This document shows, piece after piece, positions 16,640 to 31,029 of a stretch of DNA of 35,675 bases. The position numbers and the translations under genes are program-made. The stretch covers positions 1 through 35,675 of the forward strand of contig CAJXQC010000027.1 of assembly GCA_913058495.1 (NCBI GenBank). The letters are read 5' to 3'. The stretch comes from an uncultured Balneola sp. GTDB lineage: Bacteria; Bacteroidota; Rhodothermia; Balneolales; Balneolaceae. Position 1 is the stretch's first letter, and every line of letters begins with the position of its first letter. The notes below the pieces were generated by a model. It did no database searches. It worked only from the letters and a program-made list of their open reading frames with translations, and was not told where the DNA came from.

Positions 16640-17896
16640 ATGGGAATGGACAAGAAAATTGAAAAGAAAAAATGGACGCCTAAAAAGATTGGCCTCATTG
16701 TTATCGTTTTAGCCTTCATTGGATTTACAATCTACAGCTTTGCTTATATGGATTTCAGATCCACACTCAATGTTGAAAAAGAAAAGTTGACCATTTCTAC
16801 TGTCGCTGAAAATTCGTTTCAGGAGTTTATTCAGGTCTCGGGAACTGTTCAACCAATTCGTACCATTTTTCTGGATGCCCTTGAAGGTGGAGTGATCAAA
16901 TCAGTTAACCTCGAATCCGGAACCACTGTAGAAAGAGGTGACACCATCGCTGTTTTAACGAATTCTTCTCTTCAATTAAGTGTACTTCAGCAGGAAGCAA
17001 GTCTTTATGATCAGATCAACAACGTCAGAAATTCCCGTTTGAATCTGGAACAGAATAACCTTCGGTTGAAAGAACAATTGATAAGTGTAGAAAATCAATT
17101 GAACCTTGCTAAGCCTGAATTTGAAAGACAAAAATCTTTATATGAGAAAAGCCTCACTTCTGAACAGGAGTTTCAACAGGCTAAAGAAAATTATGAGTAC
17201 CAAAAAAAGAGATATGAAATAAGTTCCGAGTCCTTTAAACGCGATTCAGTTCAAACAAGATCACAACTAAGACAACTTGATGAATCCGAAAAACGAATGT
17301 TCAGAAGTCTGGATGGAGTTCAGGCTATTCTTGAAAATCTGATCGTGACTGCTCCAATTAACGGACAACTTACTACCGTGGAATTACAACAAGGTCAATC
17401 CATTAACAGAGGTGAAAGAATTGGTCAGGTAGACATTCTGGATAATTATAAGATCAGAGTTGGTGTGGATGAGTTTCATTTGTCCAGAATCACTACCGGT
17501 TTGGAAGGCTCTTTCAATTTCGCCGGCGAAACCCATGAATTAGTTATAACGAAGGTTTATCCGGTTATCAATAATGGTCAATTTCAGGTTGATATGGAAT
17601 TTGTGAATGAGTCGCCGTCCGGATTAAGAAGAGGACAAACAGCAAGAATTCGGCTAGAACTTGGAGAATCATCAAATGCTTTGCTTTTACCAAGAGGCGG
17701 TTTTTATCAAACCACAGGTGGAAATTGGGTTTTTAAATTGAATGAAGATGGCACTCAGGCAGTGAAGCAAAATATCAGATTGGGTCGTCTTAACCCTGAG
17801 TATTACGAAGTATTGTCGGGATTAGAGGCTGGTGATAAAGTAATTACATCAAGCTATGACACTTTTGGAGATAATGAGGTTTTGGAGTTGAATTAA
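16640..17896 (+). CDS. Membrane-fusion adaptor (HlyD/MacA-type) of an ABC export system
   Basis: A 418-residue periplasmic adaptor: basic N-terminus, membrane anchor (about 16-36), a lipoyl/barrel-sandwich half (GVIKSVNLESGTTVERGDTIAVL), a long coiled-coil hairpin (about 110-215), the second lipoyl half (IVTAPINGQLTTVELQQGQSINRGERIG), a beta-barrel and a membrane-proximal domain (GLEAGDKVITS). Such adaptors link an inner-membrane transporter to an outer-membrane channel. It is the first gene behind the sigma-54 promoter and the only adaptor for all the permeases downstream. No TolC-like gene is in the window. A second ATG two codons in (16646) could be the start. The stop codon lies in a hairpin bordering the inserted four-helix gene. 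Confidence 0.93.
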   Translation: MGMDKKIEKKKWTPKKIGLIVIVLAFIGFTIYSFAYMDFRSTLNVEKEKLTISTVAENSFQEFIQVSGTVQPIRTIFLDALEGGVIKSVNLESGTTVERGDTIAVLTNSSLQLSVLQQEASLYDQINNVRNSRLNLEQNNLRLKEQLISVENQLNLAKPEFERQKSLYEKSLTSEQEFQQAKENYEYQKKRYEISSESFKRDSVQTRSQLRQLDESEKRMFRSLDGVQAILENLIVTAPINGQLTTVELQQGQSINRGERIGQVDILDNYKIRVGVDEFHLSRITTGLEGSFNFAGETHELVITKVYPVINNGQFQVDMEFVNESPSGLRRGQTARIRLELGESSNALLLPRGGFYQTTGGNWVFKLNEDGTQAVKQNIRLGRLNPEYYEVLSGLEAGDKVITSSYDTFGDNEVLELN

Positions 17897-17926
17897 CAGC
17901 TATTAGCTGACAGCATTTAGCTGTTA
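17894..17926. repeat. Hairpin at the shared 3' ends of the adaptor and four-helix genes
   Basis: TAACAGCTA (17894-17902) pairs with TAGCTGTTA (17918-17926). The left arm starts with the stop codon of the adaptor gene, and the right arm overlaps the stop of the minus-strand four-helix gene. It contains AGCTATTAGCT (17898-17908), which is found inverted on the far side of the four-helix gene. It could serve as a two-way terminator or mark an insertion boundary. Confidence 0.7.
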
Positions 17927-18279
17927 GTTCTTTGTACTTGTTTATGAAGCGAAGTTAACATCTTCATTACTTCATCAACAGAAACAGATAGTTCTTTACA
18001 CATTTTGTTTGAAATATAGTTTAGGTCTCTGGCCAGAATTATTTGATATCTCAATTCTGATGCAGAGCCTAATGAAATATTTAAAAAATGAGCCATTTGA
18101 GATTGACTGGTTCGTCCACATCCCTCAGCAATGTTTGTTGGGATAGAAGATGAAGACCTTCGAATTTGGCTTGTTAGTCCGTAAATCTCTGATCTTGGAA
18201 AATCGGAGGTAAGCTCATAGACAGATAACGTTAACTCATGGCTTTTTTGCCATACTAAAAGACTTTTAAAATCACGCAT
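17917..18279 (-). CDS. Four-helix-bundle protein (23S rRNA intervening-sequence family)
   Basis: A 120-residue protein with the family hallmarks LLVWQKSHELTLSVYELT, FPRSEIYGLTSQIRRSSSSI, PTNIAEGCGRTSQ and ISLGSASELRYQIILA; length and order fit the complete family (TIGR02436-type). The founding members are encoded within intervening sequences of 23S rRNA genes and form pentamers of four-helix bundles; their function is uncertain. Here it lies antisense between the adaptor gene and its ATPase gene, which in such systems are normally adjacent, and is framed by AGCTATTAGCT repeats on both sides. This looks like insertion of a small mobile or passenger unit into the operon. No transposase is seen. 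Confidence 0.93.
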   Translation of the reverse strand: MRDFKSLLVWQKSHELTLSVYELTSDFPRSEIYGLTSQIRRSSSSIPTNIAEGCGRTSQSQMAHFLNISLGSASELRYQIILARDLNYISNKMCKELSVSVDEVMKMLTSLHKQVQRTNS

Positions 18280-18290
18280 AAGAATAATGT

Positions 18291-18343
18291 TTACTTGGTT
18301 ACTAAAAGCTAATAGCTAATAGCTAATAGCTTTAACCAAGTAA
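18291..18343. repeat. Inverted repeat with a tandem AGCTAAT core
   Basis: TTACTTGGTTA (18291-18301) and TAACCAAGTAA (18333-18343) are perfect 11-bp inverted arms. Between them AGCTAAT is repeated three times plus AGCT (18307-18331), the reverse complement of the AGCTATTAGCT motif at 17898-17908. The element lies just upstream of the four-helix gene and 64 bp before the ATPase gene. It is probably the other boundary of the inserted unit. Confidence 0.8.
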
Positions 18344-18406
18344 GACACACTCAACCAAATTCCTTACAAAAATTTAAATAAATACTTAACACAAACTAAC
18401 TGAACA

Positions 18407-19096
18407 ATGATACAAGCAAAAAACCTCAAAAAAGTCTACTCAACGGAAGAAGTAGAAACAACTGCTTTGAACAACGTGAACATCGAGATCAAAGAAGGTG
18501 AGTTCGTAGCCATCATGGGTCCTTCAGGTTGTGGAAAATCCACTTTGCTGAATATTATGGGCTTGCTGGATAATCCTAGTGACGGCGAATATCATTTTCT
18601 TGGACATGATGTTTCTAACAAGACGGAAAGGGAACGAGCTCAGCTTCGCAAAGGAAATATCGGATTCATCTTTCAAAGCTTTAATCTGATCGACGAGCTT
18701 ACTGTATTCGAAAATGTTGAACTCCCTCTTCTCTATCTGGGAATGTCTGCTGATGAACGAAAAGAAAAAGCAGAAGCTGCTTTGGAAAGAATGAGTATGA
18801 TGCATCGCCGTAATCACTTTCCTCAACAATTGTCCGGTGGACAGCAGCAACGTGTAGCCATTGCCCGGGCAGTAGTAGCAAATGCTAAACTGATCCTTGC
18901 CGATGAGCCTACCGGTAATCTGGACTCTGATCACGGTAATGAAGTAATGAAAGTTCTTGCAGAGTTAAATGAGCAGGGAACGACAATTGTAATGGTAACT
19001 CACTCCCCTCATGATGCGGACTATGCGATGCGCGTAATTCACCTATTTGATGGACATGTAGTTACTGAAAATATGCAGGAAGGCTTTCACGTCTAA
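18407..19096 (+). CDS. ABC transporter ATPase, MacB/LolD type (ATPase 1)
   Basis: A 229-residue stand-alone ATPase with every catalytic element: Walker [10 protein letters not shown] (39-47), Q-loop [18 protein letters not shown], signature [14 protein letters not shown], Walker [15 protein letters not shown] with an intact D-loop, and H-loop [11 protein letters not shown]. The sequence is of the LolD/MacB/FtsE group that powers FtsX-type permeases. It is 20 bp ahead of the first of four tandem permease genes and is the likely engine for them. The preceding gap (18280-18406) holds only the repeat described separately; no promoter was recognised, so expression may depend on read-through from the adaptor gene. 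Confidence 0.95.
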
Positions 19097-19116: not shown

Positions 19117-21576
19117 ATGCTTAAGAATTATATAAAAATCGCCCTTCGAAGTCTTTTTAAACAAAAGATGTACTCCTTTATCAATATTTCAGGATTAGCT
19201 TTAGGAGTTGCTTGTTGTGCGTTGATCCTGCTCTATACAACTAATGAATGGAGTTTTGATAAATTTCACTCCAAATCAGACAGGATTTATCGTGCATGGA
19301 CATTAGAAGATTATGGAGAAGGTGATATTTATTTCAATACAGTTACGCCATTTGTATTGAAACCTACTCTTGAGCAAAGTATACCTGAAGTTGATCAAAT
19401 TGCCCGGCGATATGTATTCAATGATCTTGTTAAACGATCTGAATCTGATGAGTCTTTTTCAACTTCAATACAAGCAGTAGACCCTGAGTTCTTTTCCATT
19501 TTTGATTTTGAATTATTAAGGGGCGACTCTGAACAGATTTTCTCCGGACTGAATGAAGTTGTACTTACACCGGAATTGGCAAACCAATACTTCGAGAATG
19601 AAGATCCATTACAAAAAACTCTTTTAGTAATGATGGGAGGTGAATTCCAGGCATTTACAGTTACCGGAATAATAGAAGAGCCTCCAACTAATTCCAGTAT
19701 TCAATACGGATTACTTATCCCGATGGAAAAGGCGCAGACAGTTCTAAATCCAAACTCATTACTGAATTGGTATAGCGTTACTCCTGAGACATATGTTCTT
19801 TTAAATGAGCAGGCCGATTTAACCGCTGTGCAAGCAAAGTTCCCTGCTATGATGGAGCAAGCACTCGGTGAGGATTACAATGAAGGAGAATATGAAGTTG
19901 GCCTCCAACCTATCACTGATATTCATTTAAATACAGAGTTTCCGGTTGGAATTGCTTCCGTAAGTGATCCAACCTACTCCTACATTTTAGGAGCGATCGC
20001 TCTTTTAATACTCATCATCGCTTGTGTCAACTTTATGACCTTGTCGATAAGCCGTTCTACTTCAAGAGCTAAAGAAGTTGGAATCAGAAAAACGATTGGA
20101 GCTGAACGTCATCACCTAATGTACCAGTTTTGGGGAGAAGCTCTGTTAATGACTGTCTTTTCAGTAAGCCTTGGTGTGTTAATCTCTGAATTCCTTCTGC
20201 CTTTTTTTAACCAACTTTCAGGAACACAGCTTTCACTTCAGCTAAGTTTAAACACAATTCTACTCTATTCAGGATTAGCTCTTTTTATCAGCTTGATTGC
20301 CGGTATTTATCCGGCTCTTGTTCTGTCAAACTTTAAACCTATTGAAGTACTCAAAGGTAAGCTTCAGATAAAAGGAGATAAAAATATTTTCAGAAAAGGA
20401 ATGGTTGTATTCCAATTCACTATTTCCATTTTTCTGATCGCCAGTACTCTTATGGTTAATAAACAATTGGATTTTCTTCGTTCAAAAGATCTGGGGTTCC
20501 AAAAAGAAGAAGTCGTGATCCTGCAAACAGGTCTCCAGCTTGGGCCACAGATGGGATTCTCTCAAATAACACAGGAGTCTGTTCGCAAAAAAGAACTCTT
20601 TGAAAGTCAAATCTCAGCTAATTCAAGTGTTCTGGATCTGGCTTCTTCTATTTATACACCTGCACAACAAGGTTGGATAGGGGTTGATTTTAAAGATGCT
20701 GATCAGCAAACAAGACGGATGAATATCAATTTTGTAGATGCTGATTATCTGAATATGATGGGGATTGAAGTAACTGAGGGCAGAAGTTTTTCTGATGAAA
20801 TTACTTCTGACAAACGCAGAGCAATTATTGTTAATAAGGCTTTGGTAGATGATTATGGCTGGGATAATGCCATTGGGAAAAAGCTTCCCGGGAGTAACTT
20901 TGAAGACCACGAGATCATAGGTGTAGTTGAAAACTTCAATTATCAATCCTTACGCACCTCTGTTGAACCTTTGGCAATGTCTATCAACCCTTCTTTGCTA
21001 TTAAGCGGTATTGCTAATATCGGTTTCTTTAACTCTCCTTCACCTAGAATTTCATTAAAAATAAGCTCTGAAAACATCCCTGAAACGATCAGAGAAATTG
21101 AACAAACCTGGGCGGCTGTGTCACCCGGAACACCGTTTGATTTTCAATTTTTGGATAGTTCTATTGACAGTCAGTATCGACAAGAAGAAAGATTACAAAA
21201 AATAGCCGTATCAGGCTCAGCCTTAGCTATTATCATTGCTTGTCTCGGTCTTTTTGGTCTCGCTTCGCTAATGATCTCAAGAAGAGTTAAAGAGATTGGC
21301 ATCAGAAAAGTTCTCGGTGCTTCAGCTACCAGCATAACCCTTTTAGTAAATAAAGAATTTACGGTTCTTGTACTTGTATCCATCCTTTTAGCTGTACCGA
21401 TGGCATGGTATGCTATTTCTGTTTGGCTTGATGATTTTGCCTACAAAGCCGACATGGGTTTTTGGTTGTATGTGCTTGCCGGAGGAATCGCAATTTTTAT
21501 TTCCTGGGCTACCATAAGTATTCAATCTATTAAAGCAGCACAGATAAATCCGGTTAAGAGTCTCAAATCCGAATAG
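19117..21576 (+). CDS. Double FtsX/MacB-type ABC permease 1
   Basis: An 819-residue inner-membrane permease made of two FtsX halves in one chain. Half one: helix near 19-40, periplasmic MacB_PCD-like domain (about 50-280), three helices (about 285-405) with the coupling motif KEVGIRKTIGA near 318. Half two: helix near 422-445, second periplasmic domain (about 455-690), three helices to the end with KEIGIRKVLGAS near 724. The chain ends NPVKSLKSE. MacB and LolC/E dimerise from single FtsX units, so this chain may be a built-in dimer. In MacB-type systems such permeases drive export by shape change in the periplasm instead of by passing the substrate through the membrane. It follows ATPase 1 by 20 bp and is the likely primary partner. 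Confidence 0.9.
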   Translation: MLKNYIKIALRSLFKQKMYSFINISGLALGVACCALILLYTTNEWSFDKFHSKSDRIYRAWTLEDYGEGDIYFNTVTPFVLKPTLEQSIPEVDQIARRYVFNDLVKRSESDESFSTSIQAVDPEFFSIFDFELLRGDSEQIFSGLNEVVLTPELANQYFENEDPLQKTLLVMMGGEFQAFTVTGIIEEPPTNSSIQYGLLIPMEKAQTVLNPNSLLNWYSVTPETYVLLNEQADLTAVQAKFPAMMEQALGEDYNEGEYEVGLQPITDIHLNTEFPVGIASVSDPTYSYILGAIALLILIIACVNFMTLSISRSTSRAKEVGIRKTIGAERHHLMYQFWGEALLMTVFSVSLGVLISEFLLPFFNQLSGTQLSLQLSLNTILLYSGLALFISLIAGIYPALVLSNFKPIEVLKGKLQIKGDKNIFRKGMVVFQFTISIFLIASTLMVNKQLDFLRSKDLGFQKEEVVILQTGLQLGPQMGFSQITQESVRKKELFESQISANSSVLDLASSIYTPAQQGWIGVDFKDADQQTRRMNINFVDADYLNMMGIEVTEGRSFSDEITSDKRRAIIVNKALVDDYGWDNAIGKKLPGSNFEDHEIIGVVENFNYQSLRTSVEPLAMSINPSLLLSGIANIGFFNSPSPRISLKISSENIPETIREIEQTWAAVSPGTPFDFQFLDSSIDSQYRQEERLQKIAVSGSALAIIIACLGLFGLASLMISRRVKEIGIRKVLGASATSITLLVNKEFTVLVLVSILLAVPMAWYAISVWLDDFAYKADMGFWLYVLAGGIAIFISWATISIQSIKAAQINPVKSLKSE

Positions 21577-21588
21577 GGAGAATTAGCT

Positions 21589-24000
21589 ATGTTCAAAAAC
21601 TATATAAAAATTGCGTTTAGAAATCTCTTAAAGAATAAGAGCCAAACGGTCATCAATGTTGGTGGACTAACACTCGGTATAATCTGTGCTATTGTCATTT
21701 TCCTGATTATTCAATTCGATCTCAGCTTCGATAAATGGCATGAAGATCCTGATAGAATTTATCGTGTTGTACGGCATGAAACTGAATTCGGAAAAAGTGT
21801 TTACTATCGGGGAGGTCCATATCCACTTGCTGAAGCTGTCAGAAATGATGTTACCGGTATTGAGTATTCCACTTTAGTTTTTAATAACCTTGCTAACGAG
21901 CCAATCATATCATATTACGATAATGGCAATCTTGTTAAGAAATTAAAAGAAAGTGATTTTGCTTTTGTTGATCCCGATTACTTCAACATCTTAACTTATA
22001 CCTGGCTATCAGGAAATCCTGAAACTGCCATTAAAAATCCTAATACTGCTGTTGTTACTCAAAGTTTTGCCCTGAAATTATTTGGCACAACTGATGTTTT
22101 AGGCAAATCAGTAGTCTTTAATGGTGGTACAGCCGCAGATATTGAAATCACGGGCGTAGTTAAGGATATGCCTGAAAATTCAGACTTCCCTTTCACATTT
22201 ATTGGTGCTAACTCAACCATGGACAGAAATGGAGAAACGGCAGAAAATCCAAGTTGGGGAAGTAACTCAAGCTCTATGCAAACCTACGTCAAGTTGGAGC
22301 CCGGTTTTTCAGAAGAACAGATCAATGAACAACTTGAAGCACTGATTGTAAAATATCGAAACGAGGAAGTTGCTGCTGAACTAGATCTCTTTCTGCAACC
22401 TCTTTCCGAAATTCATTTTGACAGCCGTTTCAGTAATTATAATGGACGTGTCATAGAAAAAAGCATGTTGTTAGCTCTTGGTATAATTGGTCTTTTTTTA
22501 CTTATAGCAGCTTGTATCAACTTCATAAACCTTAATACAGCAATTGCAGTAAGCAGATCGAAAGAAGTAGGCTTACGAAAAACCTTAGGAGGAACAAAAT
22601 CTCAATTAATGCTTCATTTTTTTGGAGAAACAGCTTTTATAACTCTAATAGCATTAGTTTTGGGAGTAGGTTTATCAGAAATCGTTCTTCAAAATATATC
22701 TCCTGTTTTAGGATTTTCTCCTGAGATGAACCTCTTATCTAATGTTGAATTACAGCTCTTTATTGTATCAATTTTCCTGCTGGTAACGTTGCTTGCGGGT
22801 TGGTATCCGGCTCAATATCTCTCCAATTTTAATCCAATAGAAGCCATCCGAAATAAGATCCAGTCAAACTATGGGAGAGGTCTTACTTTAAGAAGAGGAT
22901 TGATCGTAGTGCAATTTACCATTACTCAGGTATTAATTATTTGCACATTAATAATGGCTTCCCAGATAAGATATTTTCAAAATCAGGATTTAGGTTTTGA
23001 GAAAGAAGCCGTTGTTCAAGTTCCCATCCAAAATGAGAATATGCCCATTCTTAATGTTTTTAAAAGCTCATTACTGAATAAAACTACTATTCAAAATGTC
23101 AGCTTTTCTAATACAGGGACCACAAATAACAGTGTTTGGGGTGGGAATTATATAATGATCGAAGACTCCATCAGGCATGAAAATTCAGGTCAAGTCAAAT
23201 TCATCGATGAAAATTTTATTGATACCTATGGACTTACCTTACTGGCTGGTACAAACATACAACCATCTGATACTGTTAACGCTTATATAGTGAATCAGTC
23301 ATTTGCGAAAGAAGTTGGGTATGGAGATAACCTTTCAGGCTTGATTGGTAAAACAACTTCCATGTGGGGAACAGAAGCTCCGATTGTTGGAGTAGTTAAA
23401 GACTTTAATACTCAATCTTTACATGAAGGCTTGGCCCCTGTTTTATTAGCTCCCAGAAAAAGCTTCTTTCTTTCCGCTGTTAAAATTAACACTGCCAGAA
23501 CTAAAGAAGCTTTGGGTGATATCGAAAGAGCTTTTAATACAGCGTTTCCGGATCTGGTATTTGAATATTCATTTCTGGATGAATCAATAGAAAGCATGTA
23601 TGAAGATGAACAACGTACAGCCAAGATCATGAACGCATTTACTTTAATTGCTATCATAATTGGCTCTTTGGGTCTATTTGGGCTTGTTTCTTACATGTCA
23701 ACAACCAGAACCAAAGAAATAGGTGTTCGAAAAGTACTGGGTGCAAACCTACTGGATATTCTAAAATTATTTGGAACAGAACTAGCTCTTTTAACAGGAA
23801 TCTCGTTTGTGATAGCAGCCCCTATTTCATGGTATTTGATGAGAAACTGGCTTGAAGAATTTGCTTATAAAATTGAGCTGGGAATTGGAATATTTCTACT
23901 TGCACTTTCGGGAATCTTATTGATATCTGTATTAACCATAGGATATAAGTCGCTCAGAGCTGCTCTTTCCAATCCAATTGAATCCTTAAAAAGCGAATAG
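21589..24000 (+). CDS. Double FtsX/MacB-type ABC permease 2
   Basis: An 803-residue relative of permease 1 with the same two-half plan: start MFKNYIKIAFRNLLKNKSQT, first helix near 20-42, coupling motifs KEVGLRKTLGG near 324 and KEIGVRKVLGAN near 708, end NPIESLKSE. The periplasmic domains differ strongly from those of the neighbours, the part expected to contact adaptor and substrate. The gene lies 12 bp behind permease 1, after GGGAGA as a fair ribosome binding site. Its last bases belong to a 45-bp sequence repeated exactly at the end of permease 3. No own ATPase gene follows directly. Confidence 0.9.
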   Translation: MFKNYIKIAFRNLLKNKSQTVINVGGLTLGIICAIVIFLIIQFDLSFDKWHEDPDRIYRVVRHETEFGKSVYYRGGPYPLAEAVRNDVTGIEYSTLVFNNLANEPIISYYDNGNLVKKLKESDFAFVDPDYFNILTYTWLSGNPETAIKNPNTAVVTQSFALKLFGTTDVLGKSVVFNGGTAADIEITGVVKDMPENSDFPFTFIGANSTMDRNGETAENPSWGSNSSSMQTYVKLEPGFSEEQINEQLEALIVKYRNEEVAAELDLFLQPLSEIHFDSRFSNYNGRVIEKSMLLALGIIGLFLLIAACINFINLNTAIAVSRSKEVGLRKTLGGTKSQLMLHFFGETAFITLIALVLGVGLSEIVLQNISPVLGFSPEMNLLSNVELQLFIVSIFLLVTLLAGWYPAQYLSNFNPIEAIRNKIQSNYGRGLTLRRGLIVVQFTITQVLIICTLIMASQIRYFQNQDLGFEKEAVVQVPIQNENMPILNVFKSSLLNKTTIQNVSFSNTGTTNNSVWGGNYIMIEDSIRHENSGQVKFIDENFIDTYGLTLLAGTNIQPSDTVNAYIVNQSFAKEVGYGDNLSGLIGKTTSMWGTEAPIVGVVKDFNTQSLHEGLAPVLLAPRKSFFLSAVKINTARTKEALGDIERAFNTAFPDLVFEYSFLDESIESMYEDEQRTAKIMNAFTLIAIIIGSLGLFGLVSYMSTTRTKEIGVRKVLGANLLDILKLFGTELALLTGISFVIAAPISWYLMRNWLEEFAYKIELGIGIFLLALSGILLISVLTIGYKSLRAALSNPIESLKSE

Positions 24001-24022
24001 GAAAATTATGTTTAGAAATTAT
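23978..24022 (+). repeat. 45-bp exact direct repeat, copy 1 (permease 2/3 junction)
   Basis: Runs from the last codons of permease 2, through the 7-bp gap, into the first five codons of permease 3. It begins TTGAATCCTTAAAAAGCGAA and ends TTATGTTTAGAAATTAT. It is identical, base for base, to 26346-26390; identity stops sharply on both sides. Confidence 0.97.
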
Positions 24023-26368
24023 ATCAAGATCGCCTTGCGAAATTTGAAAAAAGATAAGGGATACACCCTTATAAACTTAATAGGGCTCAGTATGGGTATA
24101 GGAGTCTGTCTTATTATTTTCATTTTCCTCCAATTTCACTTGAGCTTTGATTCTTTTAATAAAAAAGCTGCTAATATATATCGTGTAACCACCTCAGAAC
24201 AAGGACCTGATGGTGATTTTCGTAGTACCGGAAGTATGGAGGGTGCGCTTGCACAAACCCTGTTAGATGAAATTCCTGAAGTGCGGGCGTCAGTAAGAGC
24301 TAGCAGATATGGTAAAACATTAATTACCATAGGTAATGAGAATTTCTATGAAGAGAATATTCTAAGAACCGATCCCTCTTTATTCGACATTTTCACATTC
24401 CCATTTTCACAGGGTGATCCGAAAACGGCACTTTCTGATAAATCCAATATAGTATTAACAAAGTCTGTCGCGCAAAAATACTTTAGGGAACAAAACCCCA
24501 TAGGTCAGGAGATTGTCTTTAATGAAAGAAATCGATACATCGTTACCGGAATTGTAGAAGATCCCCCAGCACAATCACATATCAATTTTTCTATGGTTAT
24601 AAATATACCGGACTCTCTCTCCGGAAGATCGATAATGGATTGGAACTGGCTTCGCTCTTTCCACACTTATGTTTTACTCGATGAACAAGCTTCCCCGAAC
24701 GATGTAGAAGCAAAAATTCCAAGTATCCTTGAAGGTAAAATGGCATTAGGAAATGCTGAGTTTCACCTCCAGTCATTAACGGATATTCATTTAAAATCAG
24801 ATTTAGGATGGGAACTGTTTCCGGAACGCATTTTCAGTATTAATTATATATACCTTTTCAGTATTGTAGGAATATTTATTTTACTAATTGCCTGCATAAA
24901 CTATGTGAACCTCGCGACCGCCCGGGCTACTACCCGATTAAAGGAAGTTGGTGTAAGAAAAGCTGCAGGTGCCCAACAAGGAAATTTGTTCTGGCAATTT
25001 ACCGGAGAAATTTTGTTACTCACCTTTACATCCGCTGTATTCTCTCTTGGACTTGTTGAGCTTCTACTTCCCTACGTGAATAAATTAATGGACCTCCAAC
25101 TTTCTTCAATAGTCATATGGTCTCCGTTATTCATAACCGGATTTATCTCTTTCATATTTCTGATTGGAATCATCTCCGGAACCTATCCCGCATTTATTCT
25201 TTCGTCTTTTAAACCGGCTGAGATTTTTAAAGGCAACGGAAAATTACTAACCAGTGAAGGATTACGTAAGGGATTGGTGGTATTCCAATTTTCCGTCAGT
25301 ATGATCTTAATTATAAGTACGATTATCATAGATCAACAATTGACTTATTTCCAAGACAAAAACCTTGGTTTAAATACTGAACAAGTATTGAATATTTCGC
25401 TTGAATCAACCAAAACAAGAGAACTCGGAAATGTTTTTCTTGAAAAGCTCGCAAATCACTCCAACATAGAATCAGTTTCAGCATCCGGAGACCTGCCCGG
25501 AAACAGTGGTACTACTTTATACTTATATCCTTTCGAGGATCAAGAATTACCCATGCCTGCGCGTTACATGAGTATAGACCCACAATTTATTAAAACCATG
25601 GAAATGGAATTGATTGCAGGCACAAACCTTACAATACCAAATACAAAATCAGAGCAAATTTCAGTAATTGTAAATGAAACTGTAGTAAAAGAAATGGGCT
25701 GGAAGCCTGATGAAGCTATAAACCAACGACTAGATAGATTTGTAATAATTGGTGTCGTCAAAGATTTTCATTTTGAATCCCTTGAACAAGAAATCCGTCC
25801 TGCTGTTATGGCTCCACTTGGTGATGCTAATCCAGATTATATCTCCGCCCGGCTTAGCCCTTCAAATATTTCAGAGACGATGGATTGGATAAGAAAAGAA
25901 TGGGATACAGTAGCGGATTCTTATCCTCTTCAATTTACGTTTATGGATGATACTTTCGAAAGTCTTTATAGGTCAGAAGAACGATTGGGAATACTTTTTA
26001 CCGTCTTTTGCATTATAACAATCATTATCGCATGTCTCGGTTTATTTGGCTTGATGGCATTTATGGCAACAAAACGTACCAAAGAAATAGGCATCCGAAA
26101 GGTTTTGGGAGCTTCCATTGTCGATATCGTAACCCTTCTCTCGAAAGATTTTATCAAGCTTGTCGTTCTTGGTTTTGTCATTGCAATCCCTATTGCTTGG
26201 TATGCTACAAATCAATGGCTTGCAGACTTTGCTTATCGCATCGAAGTTAGTGTCGATATTTTTGCTTTTACTGGAATTTCAGCAATTCTAATATCCTTTT
26301 TTACAATAAGTTGGCAGGCTATTAAATCAGCTCTGTCAAATCCGGTTGAATCCTTAAAAAGCGAATAG
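24008..26368 (+). CDS. Double FtsX/MacB-type ABC permease 3
   Basis: The shortest of the set (786 aa): start MFRNYIKIALRNLKKDKGYT, helix near 20-42, coupling motifs KEVGVRKAAGAQ near 311 and KEIGIRKVLGAS near 690, eight membrane helices in all, end NPVESLKSE. The first coupling motif (RKAAGA) departs from the RKtlGg/RKxLGa form of the neighbours, so contact with the ATPase through the first half may differ. The gene is bounded on both sides by the 45-bp direct repeat and can thus be viewed as a unit of 2368 bp that recombination could delete or duplicate cleanly. AGGAAA precedes the start codon. Confidence 0.9.
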   Translation: MFRNYIKIALRNLKKDKGYTLINLIGLSMGIGVCLIIFIFLQFHLSFDSFNKKAANIYRVTTSEQGPDGDFRSTGSMEGALAQTLLDEIPEVRASVRASRYGKTLITIGNENFYEENILRTDPSLFDIFTFPFSQGDPKTALSDKSNIVLTKSVAQKYFREQNPIGQEIVFNERNRYIVTGIVEDPPAQSHINFSMVINIPDSLSGRSIMDWNWLRSFHTYVLLDEQASPNDVEAKIPSILEGKMALGNAEFHLQSLTDIHLKSDLGWELFPERIFSINYIYLFSIVGIFILLIACINYVNLATARATTRLKEVGVRKAAGAQQGNLFWQFTGEILLLTFTSAVFSLGLVELLLPYVNKLMDLQLSSIVIWSPLFITGFISFIFLIGIISGTYPAFILSSFKPAEIFKGNGKLLTSEGLRKGLVVFQFSVSMILIISTIIIDQQLTYFQDKNLGLNTEQVLNISLESTKTRELGNVFLEKLANHSNIESVSASGDLPGNSGTTLYLYPFEDQELPMPARYMSIDPQFIKTMEMELIAGTNLTIPNTKSEQISVIVNETVVKEMGWKPDEAINQRLDRFVIIGVVKDFHFESLEQEIRPAVMAPLGDANPDYISARLSPSNISETMDWIRKEWDTVADSYPLQFTFMDDTFESLYRSEERLGILFTVFCIITIIIACLGLFGLMAFMATKRTKEIGIRKVLGASIVDIVTLLSKDFIKLVVLGFVIAIPIAWYATNQWLADFAYRIEVSVDIFAFTGISAILISFFTISWQAIKSALSNPVESLKSE

Positions 26369-26390
26369 GAAAATTATGTTTAGAAATTAT
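26346..26390 (+). repeat. 45-bp exact direct repeat, copy 2 (permease 3/4 junction)
   Basis: Second copy of the sequence at 23978-24022, spanning the end of permease 3, the 7-bp gap and the first five codons of permease 4. The start-to-start distance of the copies is 2368 bp, one permease gene plus its spacer. Confidence 0.97.
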
Positions 26391-28820
26391 TTAAAAATTA
26401 CCCTTAGAAATCTCTGGAAAAATAAGAGTTATTCTTTTATAAATATTTTTGGTCTCGCTGTTGGTTTGGCAAGCTGTATTGTGATTTTGTTATATGTAAC
26501 AAATGAATTGAGCTACGACAAACATCACAAAAAAGCAGACAGAATTGCCCGAGTAGCTTCCTTTATTGATTTCTCAGGTAGTTATTTAGAGCTGGCTACA
26601 ACCTCTGCCCCAATGGGACCCACATTAAAAAACGACTACGCTGCTGTTGAAGATATGGTTCGTTTCAGACCAAGAGGAGAATTTCATGTACGCTCAGGAG
26701 ATACAAATATTAAAGAAACAGACATCATATTTAGTGATCCTACCGTCTTTAATGTTTTCACAATTCCGGTAATTCATGGTGATGCGGAGACCGCGCTTTT
26801 AGAGCCTTACACGATGGCCATCTCCAAATCAAAAGCGCTGAAATATTTTGGGAAAGAAAATGTTGTTGGGGAGTCATTGTTGCTGGATGATGAGCATTCT
26901 TACAAGATTACAGCAATCTATGAAGACATGCCCCCTGCTTCCCATTTCAATTTTGAGTTTCTTCTTTCAATGGAAACAAACTCAGATGAAGCTAATAATG
27001 GTGTCTGGCTTAGCAATAACTTCAGAACGTATTTACTGCTCAAAGAAGGAACTGATTTAAAAGCTTTTGAAGAGAACTTTAAAAGCATCAAAAAAACTTA
27101 CGTAGAGCCCCAGTTAATTCAGTTTACCGGTAACGGGCTTGACGAATTTGAGGAAGCAGGAAACAGTTTGCATTACCAGCTCCAACCACTTACTGATATT
27201 CATCTTCATTCAGATTTAGTTGCTGAATTCAAACCGAATGGAAATATAAACTATGTATTTCTCTTCTCAGGTCTGGCCGCTTTTATTCTTATTCTGGCTT
27301 GTATCAATTTTATGAATCTTTCTACTGCACGTTCAGTGAAAAGAGCCAAAGAAGTTGGTATCCGTAAATCCTTAGGTTCGCTAAGAAAACAATTAGTTGG
27401 TCAGTTCTTTACCGAATCCATGTTGTTATGTCTTTTCTCTTTTTTGATCGCTCTCCTGCTTGTAGAACTAACACTTCCCTTCTTCAGTAATTTGTCAGGA
27501 ACCCATCTTGTTACAAATTATTTTTCTGACAGCACTTTAATTACTTCTATTATAAGTATAGTCCTGATTACCGGACTGCTGTCAGGAAGTTACCCGGCCA
27601 TCATGCTTTCAGGTTTCAAACCAATTAAGGTCTTAAAAGGAGCTTTTCAACATAAAGAAAAGAGCAAATTTAGAAGTACGCTAGTAGTTTTTCAGTTCAG
27701 TGTTTCTTTAGTAGTGATTATCGGATTACTGGTTATCAATAAGCAGCTGGAATTTATCCAAAATCAATCTTTAGGATTTCAGAAAGAACAAACAATTATC
27801 GTTCATGATGCTTATATGCTTAGCTCCAATCTTCAGGCCTACAAAGATCAATTATTAAACGAACAAGAGTTTAAGAGTTCCACTGTTTCCAGTTATTTGC
27901 CCGTAAGCGGATTTTCTATGAACGACCAGACCTTCTGGCCTAAAGGAGAAGATCCGATTCAGGGGAATAACTCATCTCTGCAGGTTTGGCGTGTTGATGA
28001 AGATTATATTCCAACATTGGGAATGGAAATTATTGAAGGTAGGAATTTTTCTAAAGAAAGAGGATCGGATGGAAATACTGTAATTCTAAATGAAGCGTTA
28101 GCTCAACGATTTGGTTTTGAAGATCCTGTCGGAGAAATAATTACAACCTTTACACAAAATCCGGATGGCTCTTTTGATAATGAAAACCTGAGGGAGTTTA
28201 CCATAATAGGAATAGTAAAGAATTTCCATTTCAGATCACTCAAAGAAAACATCTCACCTTTGGGGCTTTTCAAGGGAGCTAGCCGTGGAAATGTCATCTT
28301 TAAAATTGATGCAAAGAATGCTTCAATCGCGCTTTCCAAGCTTGAAAATACCTGGACTGAAATGGCTCCGGGTCAACCTTTCAGCTATTCTTTTTTAGAT
28401 GACCGATTTGACCAAATGTACAGATCTGAGAACCGTGTCAGCAATCTGGTATTTGCCTTTTCTGTCTTGATCATTGTTATCGCTTGCCTTGGTTTATTCG
28501 GACTTTCAGCATACAGCGCCGAACAACGCACCAAAGAAATTGGAATCCGGAAAGTGCTTGGTGCAAATGTCGCAGGAATCGTTTCGCTTGTATCACGTGA
28601 TTTTATAAAACTGATCCTGATCAGCTTTTTTATTGCAGCTCCTATTGGATATTTCATCATGCAAAAGTGGCTGACAGAATTCACTTACAAAACCAATATC
28701 GGTTTTGATGTTTTTCTGATTTCAGGGATTGGAATAATTGTGATCGCTGTCATTACAGTAAGCTGGCAATCAGTAAAAGCCGCTCTTGCAAATCCTGTCA
28801 AATCACTGAAAAGTGAATAA
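26376..28820 (+). CDS. Double FtsX/MacB-type ABC permease 4
   Basis: An 814-residue permease with the shared plan: start MFRNYLKITLRNLWKNKSYS, first helix near 20-42, coupling motifs KEVGIRKSLGS near 325 and KEIGIRKVLGAN near 718, end NPVKSLKSE. Its first five codons and upstream spacer are identical to those of permease 3, whereas the rest is clearly divergent. It is followed after 17 bp by the second ATPase gene, so it may be that ATPase's partner, or the ATPase may serve all permeases. The set of four permeases in a row (19117-28820) has gaps of only 7-12 bp, consistent with a single transcript. Confidence 0.9.
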   Translation: MFRNYLKITLRNLWKNKSYSFINIFGLAVGLASCIVILLYVTNELSYDKHHKKADRIARVASFIDFSGSYLELATTSAPMGPTLKNDYAAVEDMVRFRPRGEFHVRSGDTNIKETDIIFSDPTVFNVFTIPVIHGDAETALLEPYTMAISKSKALKYFGKENVVGESLLLDDEHSYKITAIYEDMPPASHFNFEFLLSMETNSDEANNGVWLSNNFRTYLLLKEGTDLKAFEENFKSIKKTYVEPQLIQFTGNGLDEFEEAGNSLHYQLQPLTDIHLHSDLVAEFKPNGNINYVFLFSGLAAFILILACINFMNLSTARSVKRAKEVGIRKSLGSLRKQLVGQFFTESMLLCLFSFLIALLLVELTLPFFSNLSGTHLVTNYFSDSTLITSIISIVLITGLLSGSYPAIMLSGFKPIKVLKGAFQHKEKSKFRSTLVVFQFSVSLVVIIGLLVINKQLEFIQNQSLGFQKEQTIIVHDAYMLSSNLQAYKDQLLNEQEFKSSTVSSYLPVSGFSMNDQTFWPKGEDPIQGNNSSLQVWRVDEDYIPTLGMEIIEGRNFSKERGSDGNTVILNEALAQRFGFEDPVGEIITTFTQNPDGSFDNENLREFTIIGIVKNFHFRSLKENISPLGLFKGASRGNVIFKIDAKNASIALSKLENTWTEMAPGQPFSYSFLDDRFDQMYRSENRVSNLVFAFSVLIIVIACLGLFGLSAYSAEQRTKEIGIRKVLGANVAGIVSLVSRDFIKLILISFFIAAPIGYFIMQKWLTEFTYKTNIGFDVFLISGIGIIVIAVITVSWQSVKAALANPVKSLKSE

Positions 28821-28837
28821 AGTTACAAAATAAATAC

Positions 28838-29524
28838 ATGATCAAACTCAGAAACATAGACAGATACATCGACAAAAGACTTCAACGAAACTTCATCCTT
28901 AAAGGAATTGATCTGGATATTGAAGAAGGAGATTTTGTAAGTATCATGGGACCAAGCGGAGCCGGGAAATCTACTTTGCTTAATATTATTGGTTTTCTGG
29001 ATGACGCTAATGAAGGCGAGTATTATTTCCTCGATGAACCTGTTCACAGTCTGAATGAAAGGCAAAAGTCGGAATATCATCGATCTTATATTGGTTTTGT
29101 TTTTCAGGCGTATCATTTGATTGATGAACTTACGGTATATGAAAACATTGAAATGCCTCTCCTCTATCGAAAAGTAAAAGGCAGTCAGCGGAAAAGCATG
29201 GTAGCGGACATGCTGGATCGATTTAATATTGTGGCTAAAAAAGATCTGTTTCCAAATCAGCTCTCCGGTGGACAACAGCAATTGGTTGGAGTAGCGCGCG
29301 CTTTGATCGGAAGTCCTAAGCTTATCTTAGCTGATGAACCGACCGGTAATCTCCATTCGGATCAAAGCAAAGAGATCATGGAGACCTTTAAGAAATTAAA
29401 CAAAGAAGACGGAGTTACTATTATTCAGGTAACTCATTCTGATGAAATGGCGTCTTATGGAGATCGGGTTATCAATCTTCAGGATGGAGCTGTCACTGAA
29501 AACAATCCTTATGAGGAGGAATGA
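28838..29524 (+). CDS. Divergent ABC ATPase (ATPase 2)
   Basis: A 228-residue ATPase of the same LolD/MacB group. Walker [11 protein letters not shown]-loop [25 protein letters not shown] signature core, Walker [11 protein letters not shown] and H-loop IQVTHSDEM are kept. Two places depart from ATPase 1 and the family: [15 protein letters not shown] where R-V-A-I-A is usual, and a D-loop reading NLHSD with His for the conserved Asp. The core catalytic residues remain, so it may still hydrolyse ATP, possibly more slowly or only in a mixed dimer. It ends in an ATGA overlap region with the next small gene, preceded by an excellent ribosome binding site, so the two are translationally linked. Confidence 0.92.
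29514..29519 (+). promoter_or_regulatory. Strong ribosome binding site deciding the start of the next gene
   Basis: AGGAGG, the only perfect Shine-Dalgarno core I noticed ahead of a gene in this window. It is 1 base from the ATG at 29521 but 7 bases from the ATG at 29527, which makes 29527 the start. It lies within the last codons of ATPase 2. Confidence 0.8.
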
Positions 29525-29526
29525 TC

Positions 29527-29799
29527 ATGCAAAACGTAAGAGTACAATTCACTATACCTAATGTAGAAAAAGTTGCTAACCTTGATATTCACGTTAACGG
29601 AGAACAGAGAAGTCTCAAATTTCGAGTTGAAACTTTCGACTGGGATTCTGATAATGGCAGTTCCGAGGACCTGGTAAATATTCTGAGAGACCGAATACAA
29701 AACTATGATTCTCAATGGGAATTATATCATATTGGTGCCCCGCAAGAACATAGTATACCTGTTACATTTCGATTCAATGAAAATAATTCTGAGAACTAA
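29527..29799 (+). CDS. Small soluble protein of unknown function linked to ATPase 2
   Basis: A 90-residue protein without signal peptide or membrane helix. It begins with alternating strands (NVRVQFTIPNVEKVANLDIHVN), has a charged middle (FDWDSDNGSSEDLVNILRDRIQNY, a likely helix) and ends with strands (SIPVTFRFNENN), so a compact alpha-beta fold is likely. No family was recognised. It starts 2 bp after the ATPase 2 stop, with the start chosen by the AGGAGG spacing, and its end overlaps the start of the serine hydrolase gene by 23 bp. This tight packing implies stoichiometric, coupled expression. It could be a regulator or subunit of the ATPase; that is inference from position only. Confidence 0.75.
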   Translation: MQNVRVQFTIPNVEKVANLDIHVNGEQRSLKFRVETFDWDSDNGSSEDLVNILRDRIQNYDSQWELYHIGAPQEHSIPVTFRFNENNSEN

Positions 29800-30817
29800 G
29801 TTTTTTATAAAGATCAGTATTCTCCTTTTGGGGTGCTTGTTTTTAGTTGATTCAGAGCTGAAAAGTCAATCTATTGATAAATCTGAACTAAACTCCATCT
29901 CCCAAAAAGCGGAACAGATTGAACGGGTTCGGGCCCTTATAATTCATCAAAATGGTGAAACACTCACAGAAAAATCCTTTAATGGGAGAGATCTGAACCA
30001 TCCTTTTAATATTAAGTCGGCCTCTAAAAGTATTATTGGTTTATTAACGGGAATTGCCATTGAAAATGGATTTATCCCTTCCATTGAAGAGCCGATAAAA
30101 ACATATTTCCCTGAATATTTTGAAGATAATCCAGACTCCATTAAGGAATCTATTACCATCCGCAACTTGCTCACTATGCAAACAGGTTTGAGATCAACTA
30201 GCTCCGGTAACTACGGAGCGTGGGTAATTAGTGATAATTGGGTTGAATACGCTCTGGATCAGGATTTTGTATCTCAAATAGACGGAAGAATGGTCTATAG
30301 TACCGGAACCTCTCACCTTCTATCTGTTATTATTTCGAAAGCAAGTGGAATGTCTACAAAGGCGTTTGCTGAAAAATACCTATTCGGCCCTATGAACATT
30401 CGTGTGGGCGGTTGGGATAAAGATCCACAGGGAAATTATATGGGCGGAAATAATATTGCTTTAAAACCTGCTGATTTACTTAAGATCGGTCAATTAATGC
30501 TCGACAATGGTAGATATGATGATGAACAACTCATTTCAAAAGATTGGGTGAGTGACTCATTCGGCACATATACCTACAGCAACTATAATCCATATGGATA
30601 CGGATATCAATGGTGGAACCAAACTATTGGTGGCTATAAAACTTTTTTTGCCTGGGGAAGCGGTGGGCAGTATATATTTATAATCCCTGAATTAGAAACA
30701 GTTGTGGTAATCACTTCTTCGACAGCAACTACAGATCGTAGTAGAAGTTATAAGACGCCTGTCTTTGAGCTTGTTCAATTTGATATAATCCCTTTTCTTG
30801 AAGCACGTATTAACTGA
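29777..30817 (+). CDS. Secreted serine hydrolase (beta-lactamase/PBP-like, class C fold)
   Basis: A 346-residue envelope protein of the PF00144-type serine hydrolases. An N-terminal signal or anchor (KIILRTKFFIKISILLLGCLFL) precedes the catalytic domain, with SxxK as S81-A-S-K84, second motif Y174-S-T176 where class C enzymes have YxN, and a C-terminal WGSGGQ (293-298) in the place of the KTG-type strand. The Asn-to-Thr change argues against a true beta-lactamase; an esterase, amidase or D-amino-acid peptidase is more likely. I start at ATG 29777, because translation from 29705 would place a non-signal stretch ahead of the signal peptide. It overlaps the preceding small gene, so it belongs to the transport operon. 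It may trim or activate an exported product. Confidence 0.87.
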   Translation: MKIILRTKFFIKISILLLGCLFLVDSELKSQSIDKSELNSISQKAEQIERVRALIIHQNGETLTEKSFNGRDLNHPFNIKSASKSIIGLLTGIAIENGFIPSIEEPIKTYFPEYFEDNPDSIKESITIRNLLTMQTGLRSTSSGNYGAWVISDNWVEYALDQDFVSQIDGRMVYSTGTSHLLSVIISKASGMSTKAFAEKYLFGPMNIRVGGWDKDPQGNYMGGNNIALKPADLLKIGQLMLDNGRYDDEQLISKDWVSDSFGTYTYSNYNPYGYGYQWWNQTIGGYKTFFAWGSGGQYIFIIPELETVVVITSSTATTDRSRSYKTPVFELVQFDIIPFLEARIN

Positions 30818-31029
30818 CGAAAGAATTATTTAATTAGAAACCAGACAACAGAAAAAGCATTTTTATTTCAAGTTACCTGTGTATTAGCTAATTATTTATT
30901 ATTTGTAACAAACACTTCTTACGTTACTCTATTACCTGTACGAGAATAAATTTCTCAGGGGAACAAAAAAATAACCGGCTTAGGTATTTGTAGCAAATTT
31001 TCTGAGTTGCTGTCTGTCAGGATTCATGC
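30818..31029. other. 212-bp AT-rich gap between hydrolase and permease 5
   Basis: The largest gene-free gap in the plus-strand transport cluster downstream of ATPase 1. TTACCTGT occurs directly at 30873-30880 and 30932-30939. No terminator hairpin, sigma-54 box or ORF was found. It probably contains a separate promoter for permease 5, but none can be named from sequence alone. Confidence 0.4.

Follow-up and report, generated by a model that had tools for sequence, protein, structure and literature searches.

The four-helix-bundle gene and its frame

The window analysed in this study, a contig stretch of 35,675 nucleotides from an uncultured Balneola sp., contains a four-helix-bundle (FHB) gene that lies between the genes for an HlyD-type adaptor and an ABC-transporter ATPase and is antisense to both (Table 1). 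The arrangement had been described in an earlier note made from this sequence and is confirmed here. The protein scores 138 bits against PF05635 (cut-off 33.8) and 133.6 bits against TIGR02436 (cut-off 24). At an E-value of 0.001, Pfam returned PF05635 and bAvd and nothing else; domain scans found no catalytic domain in the protein, and its relatives in the PDB (2gsc and 2rld) have five chains each. We know of no established function for PF05635. The family was found in 90 of 118 sampled genomes of the window's phylum (87 over the cut-off), and the 3.40-Mb source genome carries 11 FHB genes. An Rfam scan of the window gave no match at the gathering score. Positions 19117-33492 of the window contain five large ORFs for MacB/FtsX-like permeases, interspersed with a second ATPase gene (named by eye).

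Table 1. Features of the FHB locus, in window coordinates
Feature	Position	Strand	Basis
HlyD/CusB-type adaptor gene (flank)	16640-17896	+	domain scan
Whole unit, from adaptor stop codon to motif; ends approximate	17897-18367	-	empty sites in G003 and G006
3' heptad array AGCTATTAGCTGACAGCATTTAGCTGTTAGT, in inverse orientation to the gene; includes the FHB stop codon; hairpin	17898-17928		pair I1; fold z -3.9
Terminator-like hairpin ending the adaptor gene, made by the 3' array	17905-17929	+	terminator scan
Four-helix-bundle (23S rRNA IVP / S23-like) gene, 120 aa	17917-18279	-	PF05635, TIGR02436; omega
Outer arm TTACTTGGTTA, encloses the 5' array	18291-18301		pair I7
5' heptad array ACTAAAAGCTAATAGCTAATAGCTAATAGCT; reads as TTAGCTA words on the strand of the gene	18301-18331		repeat search
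Outer arm TAACCAAGTAA, encloses the 5' array	18333-18343		pair I7
Motif GTAAGGAATT-N11-GTCTTA toward the FHB gene, promoter- or operator-like	18341-18367	-	motif search
ABC-transporter ATPase gene (flank)	18407-19096	+	domain scan

The sequence AGCTATTAGCT lies at 17898-17908 and its inverse, AGCTAATAGCT, at 18307-18317, 18314-18324 and 18321-18331; the two heptad arrays are 81% complementary over 31 nt (pair I1), and the outer arms form a perfect 11-bp pair (I7). The repeat search thus reproduced the repeats and inverted arms that the earlier note had described, and its picture of a gene framed by repeats holds as far as their positions go, but the 3' repeat extends into the terminal part of the gene and contains its stop codon. 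The end that it gave the unit, 18343, did not hold, as the unit extends on to the motif at 18341-18367. Folded as single-stranded DNA, both flanks of the window gene gave better folds than all 200 shuffles, and the fold z-score was -6.1 for 18285-18367 on the minus strand. RNA of the window unit folded into two separate hairpins rather than a single long stem, which counts against the model of a mobile unit developed below; with longer flanks it forms 19 arm-to-arm pairs. A terminator scan of 17800-18500 gave one match (0.3 expected from shuffles), and no sigma-70 promoter was predicted at the locus. It is plausible that the window unit affects expression of the ATPase gene, as the earlier note had suggested, because the adaptor and ATPase genes are 10 bp apart in another genome of the genus (G003) and the 3' array is terminator-like behind the adaptor gene.

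The earlier note had also proposed a search for further FHB genes with the same flanks. Among the 11 copies, AGCTATTAGCT proved to be the word of the window copy alone; since the copies carry different heptad words, such a search would have missed most units. The 11-mer has eight exact sites in the genome, four of them at the window unit (reversed-pattern control, none), and was rejected as a family signature. The other four sites comprise one intergenic hairpin, two positions inside ORFs, and one hairpin that takes in the final codons of an ORF where two genes converge.

Period-7 arrays around FHB genes

The flanks of FHB genes are degenerate arrays of period 7. Flank autocorrelation at lag 7 was 0.39 and 0.37, compared to 0.26 in controls, and among lags 2-15 just 7 and 14 were prominent; noncoding DNA near FHB genes itself has a slight lag-7 excess (0.304). 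A cross-phylum sample of 80 related loci from many phyla yielded 79 usable loci (one was too short) and, after exclusion of its four Balneola rows, a diverse set of 75 rows. After deduplication at 75% identity, heptad arrays were found upstream of 38 of 44 FHB genes, downstream of 30, and on at least one side of 43, compared to 7 of 58 noncoding controls from the same loci. The commonest form is YAGNNNN. YAG pairs in the deduplicated set were oriented predominantly in sense upstream of the gene (99 sense versus 29 antisense) and in antisense downstream (120 antisense versus 24 sense), and GC-richer words are also present (L153, L185 and L193). Balneola words are often of other types (GAAT, CAAC, AAGAT), and the period-7 signal is weaker there (44-46% of flanks versus 4% of controls); 17 of 25 further FHB loci of the phylum are flanked by an array on one side or both. 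Flank indels of at least 4 bp were multiples of 7 in 7 of 42 cases, where six were expected, which counts against the unit model, and slippage by heptad units was rejected as a general process; at site cl12, G002 lacks exactly 21 bp. Perfect heptad tandems that differ in copy number between G000 and G004 occur without an FHB gene at the cl14 site (L345/L347; GTGAAAG x3 and AGTGAAA-type x6, CTCAACA x3 and x6). When 20 of the 80 cross-phylum loci were searched with Rfam for FHB copies embedded in 23S rRNA, the only match was a T-box leader (L170:1312-1554) directly upstream of the FHB gene on an Anaerolineae contig.

The two flanks of a copy also resemble each other. When the 150 bp ahead of the FHB domain and the reverse-complemented 150 bp behind it were compared, own-flank pairs of the 11 source-genome copies, taken as a set, had a mean score of 19.5, compared to 11.5 (sd 3.0) for swapped pairs (0 of 20,000 permutations). 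The window copy scored 22, and three of the 11, considered one by one, differ from the swapped mean by less than two sd (c7, 12; c14b, 13; c10, 16). Arms are alike within a copy and mostly unrelated between copies, with one word shared by c14a, c3 and c5. Across the 79 cross-phylum loci the means were 18.4 for own pairs, 11.6 for swapped pairs and 9.8 for 206 control ORFs (0 of 20,000 permutations); individually, only 29 of the 79 lay above the 95th percentile of swapped pairs and 12 above the 99th, proportions that count against the model. RNA folding of 98 units gave 28.6 arm-to-arm pairs with own flanks compared to 17.6 with swapped ones (p 9e-6).

FHB genes are under purifying selection, with a median omega of 0.06 and a maximum of 0.21 over 63 orthologue pairs of the genus (over 68% aa identity, dS between 0.1 and 1.8). 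Heptad words changed less often along the FHB tree than when shuffled (15 versus 33.8 changes), as they did in the deduplicated set (11 versus 16.0) and within the window's GTDB phylum (6 versus 10.2; 22 labelled of 43 rows), in each case with 0 of 200 shuffles; the 43 rows combine the NCBI Bacteroidota rows with additional loci of the phylum, and words labelled 'other' were not counted in the tree tests. Phylum clusters too, so the agreement between word and clade is partly confounded, and the AGT word alone showed no clustering within the window's phylum (141 of 500); both results count against the model. Because of them, the agreement is suggestive of, and does not prove, recognition of the arrays by FHB proteins.

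Arrays also occur without the gene. A strict scan of 700 kb of noncoding DNA (220 kb from G000, 180 kb from G005, 220 kb from G007 and 80 kb from G003) found 13 arrays of period 7 and one for periods 5, 6, 8 and 9 altogether. Eight of the 13 were in G000 and five in G005, with no FHB gene in the scanned array tiles. None was found in the 220 kb of G007, which has one FHB, or in the 80 kb of G003, which has 11 FHBs and no AGC match; the G003 result counts against the unit model. The same is true of the arrays found by pattern, which are mostly without an FHB gene (2 of 30 AGC loci have one no more than 1.5 kb away). In 118 genomes, AGC arrays were present in 33 of the 90 with FHB and 4 of the 28 without (p 0.035), a weak association. 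G096, outside the 90, had 79 AGC-array matches, and among the matches listed all were TCAGCAC tandems. Three copies of TAACTGA occurred in 18 of 394 genomes; an FHB gene lay within 1.5 kb of 2 of 20 distinct TAACTGA sites, compared to none for 35 control tiles of 20 kb.

Turnover at fixed sites and a shared motif

A survey of the genus gave 83 FHB matches in eight genomes, of which 81, at 22 sites, were used in the site analysis; one of the two excluded is a degraded copy at recA in G005 (23.6 bits). Two FHB copies (G000:C3:140950-141264 and G007:C3:143571-143885) carry one in-frame stop each, the latter being the sole match in G007. The window locus was found in seven of the genomes, a search for the adaptor in G007 having given no match. 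Four of the seven carry the window FHB (G000, G002, G004 and G005), one (G001) carries a different FHB (63% aa identity), and two have none. In G003 the adaptor and ATPase genes are separated by 10 bp, and in G006 a perfect 17-bp hairpin takes the place of the FHB gene; in both, the entire stretch between the two genes is absent, at a divergence too high for base-level ends, as is the motif at 18341-18367. This distribution supports the small mobile or passenger unit suggested in the earlier note, and the contrary case that it had named, in which all relatives carry the gene here without repeats, did not occur, the gene being absent from two of the seven.

Comparison of G000 with G004 and G005 shows the window gene to be 99-100% identical (100%, rounded, with G005), the 3' region 98% and the far flanks 91-94%, while the 12-75 bp before the FHB domain are only 76% (G004) and 79% (G005) identical. 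The close genomes G000, G001, G002, G004 and G005 have 15 sites with an FHB gene in at least two of them. At six of these sites (0-4 and 10) one FHB has taken the place of another: the proteins are 36-69% identical in amino acids, and the far flanks of those pairs 83-96% identical. At site 2, the FHB DNA of G007 is 94% identical to that of G000, compared to 73-78% for the flanks. The best match of any copy at another site did not exceed 76% identity; no recent copying or transposition within a genome was seen, which counts against the unit model, and the low value suggests that FHB genes have spread between genomes rather than by copying inside one.

Seven sites bear on mobility: the window, recA, c3, c16, c10, c14b and cl12. 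In G003, G006 and G007 the motif immediately precedes recA with no FHB between them, and in G000 and G005 an FHB unit lies between motif and recA. TCTTAC stands at both ends of this unit and is a direct repeat in the comparison with G003 only; a target-site duplication was thus not firmly found, and this too counts against the model. At c16 the neighbouring genes abut in G003 and G006, and G007 retains an FHB-like remnant (by eye). At c3, G007 is without an array, and arrays or hairpins lacking an FHB are present in G001, G002, G004, G005 and G006. Arrays without the gene were likewise found at c10 (G001), c14b (G004 and G005) and cl12 (G000, G001 and G002). FHB units can therefore occupy sites that are array-free in other genomes, and gene-less arrays are frequent too. 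Terminal inverted repeats, as used to recognise MITEs and insertion sequences, are imperfect in the window copy and almost perfect over 37-38 bp in the G004 unit at cl12, where they enclose the motif.

The motif GTAAGGA-N12..18-GTCTTA had 20 matches in G000, compared to five for a reversed control. Downstream of these matches are ssb, radC followed by FHB, a ComM-like Mg-chelatase gene followed by FHB, FHB followed by recA, FHB followed by recN, the window FHB, two DUF559 genes, three GIY-YIG genes (one with a broken frame), five Y1/RAYT-like genes, one phage-integrase-family gene and three without an assignment (L326, L330 and L333). The names recA, recN and ssb were given by eye, and ten motif-linked proteins were scanned with Pfam; the three Y1/RAYT-like proteins among them all match Y1_Tnp, L328 over the cut-off and the other two just under it. 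Elsewhere, ssb, radC, comM and recA are competence genes; the region upstream of recA presumably has a LexA-like box. A looser form of the motif was found within 260 bp upstream of 30 of the 81 FHB copies (8 of 22 sites), compared to 38 of 4284 control windows, and the limited share of copies counts against the unit model.

A candidate mobile unit, its rivals and its relatives

The anatomy of the unit recurs across phyla, and at fixed sites it is present in some genomes, absent from others and replaced by other alleles in yet others. On balance, we consider it likely that these loci are single-gene mobile units, each comprising a sense heptad array, an FHB gene and an inverted array, often with the motif in or beside an array, and that the FHB protein binds the arrays and the unit spreads. 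The protein, probably a pentamer, would bind its own arrays at their YAG-type heptads, in the form of hairpin DNA or RNA, and by doing so protect or present the unit. Spread would be mainly between strains and species, perhaps during a state of DNA uptake or recombination signalled by the GTAAGGAAT-GTCTTAC motif. Since no catalytic domain was found in FHB, pasting may fall to host recombination or to a co-regulated transposase.

Several other explanations of these patterns deserve consideration. Intervening sequences of rRNA sit at hairpin loops, and heptad hairpins could similarly be a target, with FHB genes settling in pre-existing intergenic palindromes. Genomes without the gene do often show a heptad array or hairpin at the corresponding position (the window site in G006, c10 in G001 with a shared left arm, c14b, cl12, and c3 in five genomes), and the arrays in FHB-less noncoding tiles of G000 and G005 fit as well; we nevertheless regard this as somewhat unlikely, as there are empty sites without an evident array (the window and recA in G003, c16 in G003 and G006, c3 in G007), and neither the agreement of word with FHB clade nor the occupancy of 43 of 44 cross-phylum genes is expected of a mere target. 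REPs are moved in trans by hairpin-recognising transposases of the Y1/RAYT type, and such enzymes, co-regulated with FHB genes, might move FHB units in the same way. Five Y1/RAYT-like genes (by eye) in G000 share the motif, some with palindromic ends of their own, but those palindromes are not heptad arrays (by eye), and movement by these enzymes seems unlikely.

The strong purifying selection on FHB and the position of its genes in G000, ahead of recA and recN and following radC and comM (recA and recN by eye), would also suit a resident regulator whose operators or mRNA structures are the arrays and whose presence and absence reflect loss only. Loss does not account for replacement by proteins of 36-69% identity at six of 15 sites, or for FHB DNA shared by G007 and G000 at far higher identity than its flanks, which makes a resident regulator very unlikely. 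That the repeats are chance low-complexity sequence in an AT-rich genome is exceedingly improbable: several words are AT-rich and noncoding DNA near FHB genes has its own lag-7 excess, but period 7 accounts for 13 arrays against one for the other periods of 5-9 in 700 kb, GC-richer words exist, and the permutation tests on 11 copies and on 79 loci point the same way.

Comparison with known systems places the proposed mobile unit among several partial relatives. The FHB protein has distant similarity to Avd of diversity-generating retroelements (PF22296, 39.6 bits; NF033474, 36.4 bits), below the respective cut-offs of 40 and 80. In REP/RAYT systems, a gene is framed by hairpins and gene-less hairpins are found in the genome, as is the case here; unlike REPtrons, however, the FHB unit has no Y1 HUH transposase gene, its protein matching PF05635 and bAvd, and its frame is a period-7 array rather than a tagged palindrome. 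The 23S rRNA intervening sequence of Coxiella, in the available text of its description, has a 28-bp terminal stem with terminal inverted repeats and an S23 gene between complementary ends, with heptameric GACAGAT direct repeats just upstream of the ORF (PMC4990558). The window unit likewise has an IVP ORF between complementary ends and may be a free-standing version of such an intervening sequence. It differs in lying between protein genes, the adaptor and ATPase, and not within rRNA (no Rfam match in the window); in addition, arrays vary from copy to copy and several units have a promoter-like motif. Searches of one open-access library, judged by titles and the beginnings of abstracts, gave no report besides that on Coxiella that joins FHB or S23 genes to heptad repeats; FHB genes are among the unique genes of one Arthrospira strain, according to the available text of PMC8700078.

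Orphan intergenic TAACTGA heptamers have been described from Beggiatoaceae, Cyanobacteria and Bacteroidetes, and the available text reports no evident mechanism of spread, a suspicion of horizontal spread, and no identified binding protein (PMC4679880). They resemble the FHB arrays in being intergenic heptamers whose reverse complement, TCAGTTA, is a YAG heptad; on the other hand, the main text of PMC4679880 has no mention of 23S, four-helix, intervening or S23, and only the 2 of 20 TAACTGA sites given above had an FHB gene nearby. As a tentative proposal, which is possible rather than probable, FHB/S23/IVP proteins could be the cognate binding proteins of intergenic YAG heptads in a phylum-spanning mobile repeat system like RAYT/REP, with 23S rRNA intervening sequences as the branch that resides in rRNA and orphan heptamers, TAACTGA among them, as footprints without a gene. 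The polar heptad frame provides a concrete candidate ligand for PF05635 and ties rRNA intervening sequences to free-standing genes, and FHB becomes a candidate binding protein for heptamers reported without an evident mechanism of spread in the available text of PMC4679880. The motif that some FHB genes have in common with ssb, recA, radC, comM, transposase and integrase genes opens the timing and path of spread to testing.

Some genes other than FHB that follow the GTAAGGAAT-GTCTTAC motif, namely L320 (DUF559), L322 and L334 (Y1-type) and L323 (GIY-YIG), have their own palindromic inverted ends, which are not heptads (by eye); these four may represent a group of mobile single-gene units linked to the motif. 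The same motif stands ahead of the phage-integrase-family gene at L331:852-1814 on the minus strand, whose product has an N-terminal SAM-like domain and is integron-integrase-like by eye.
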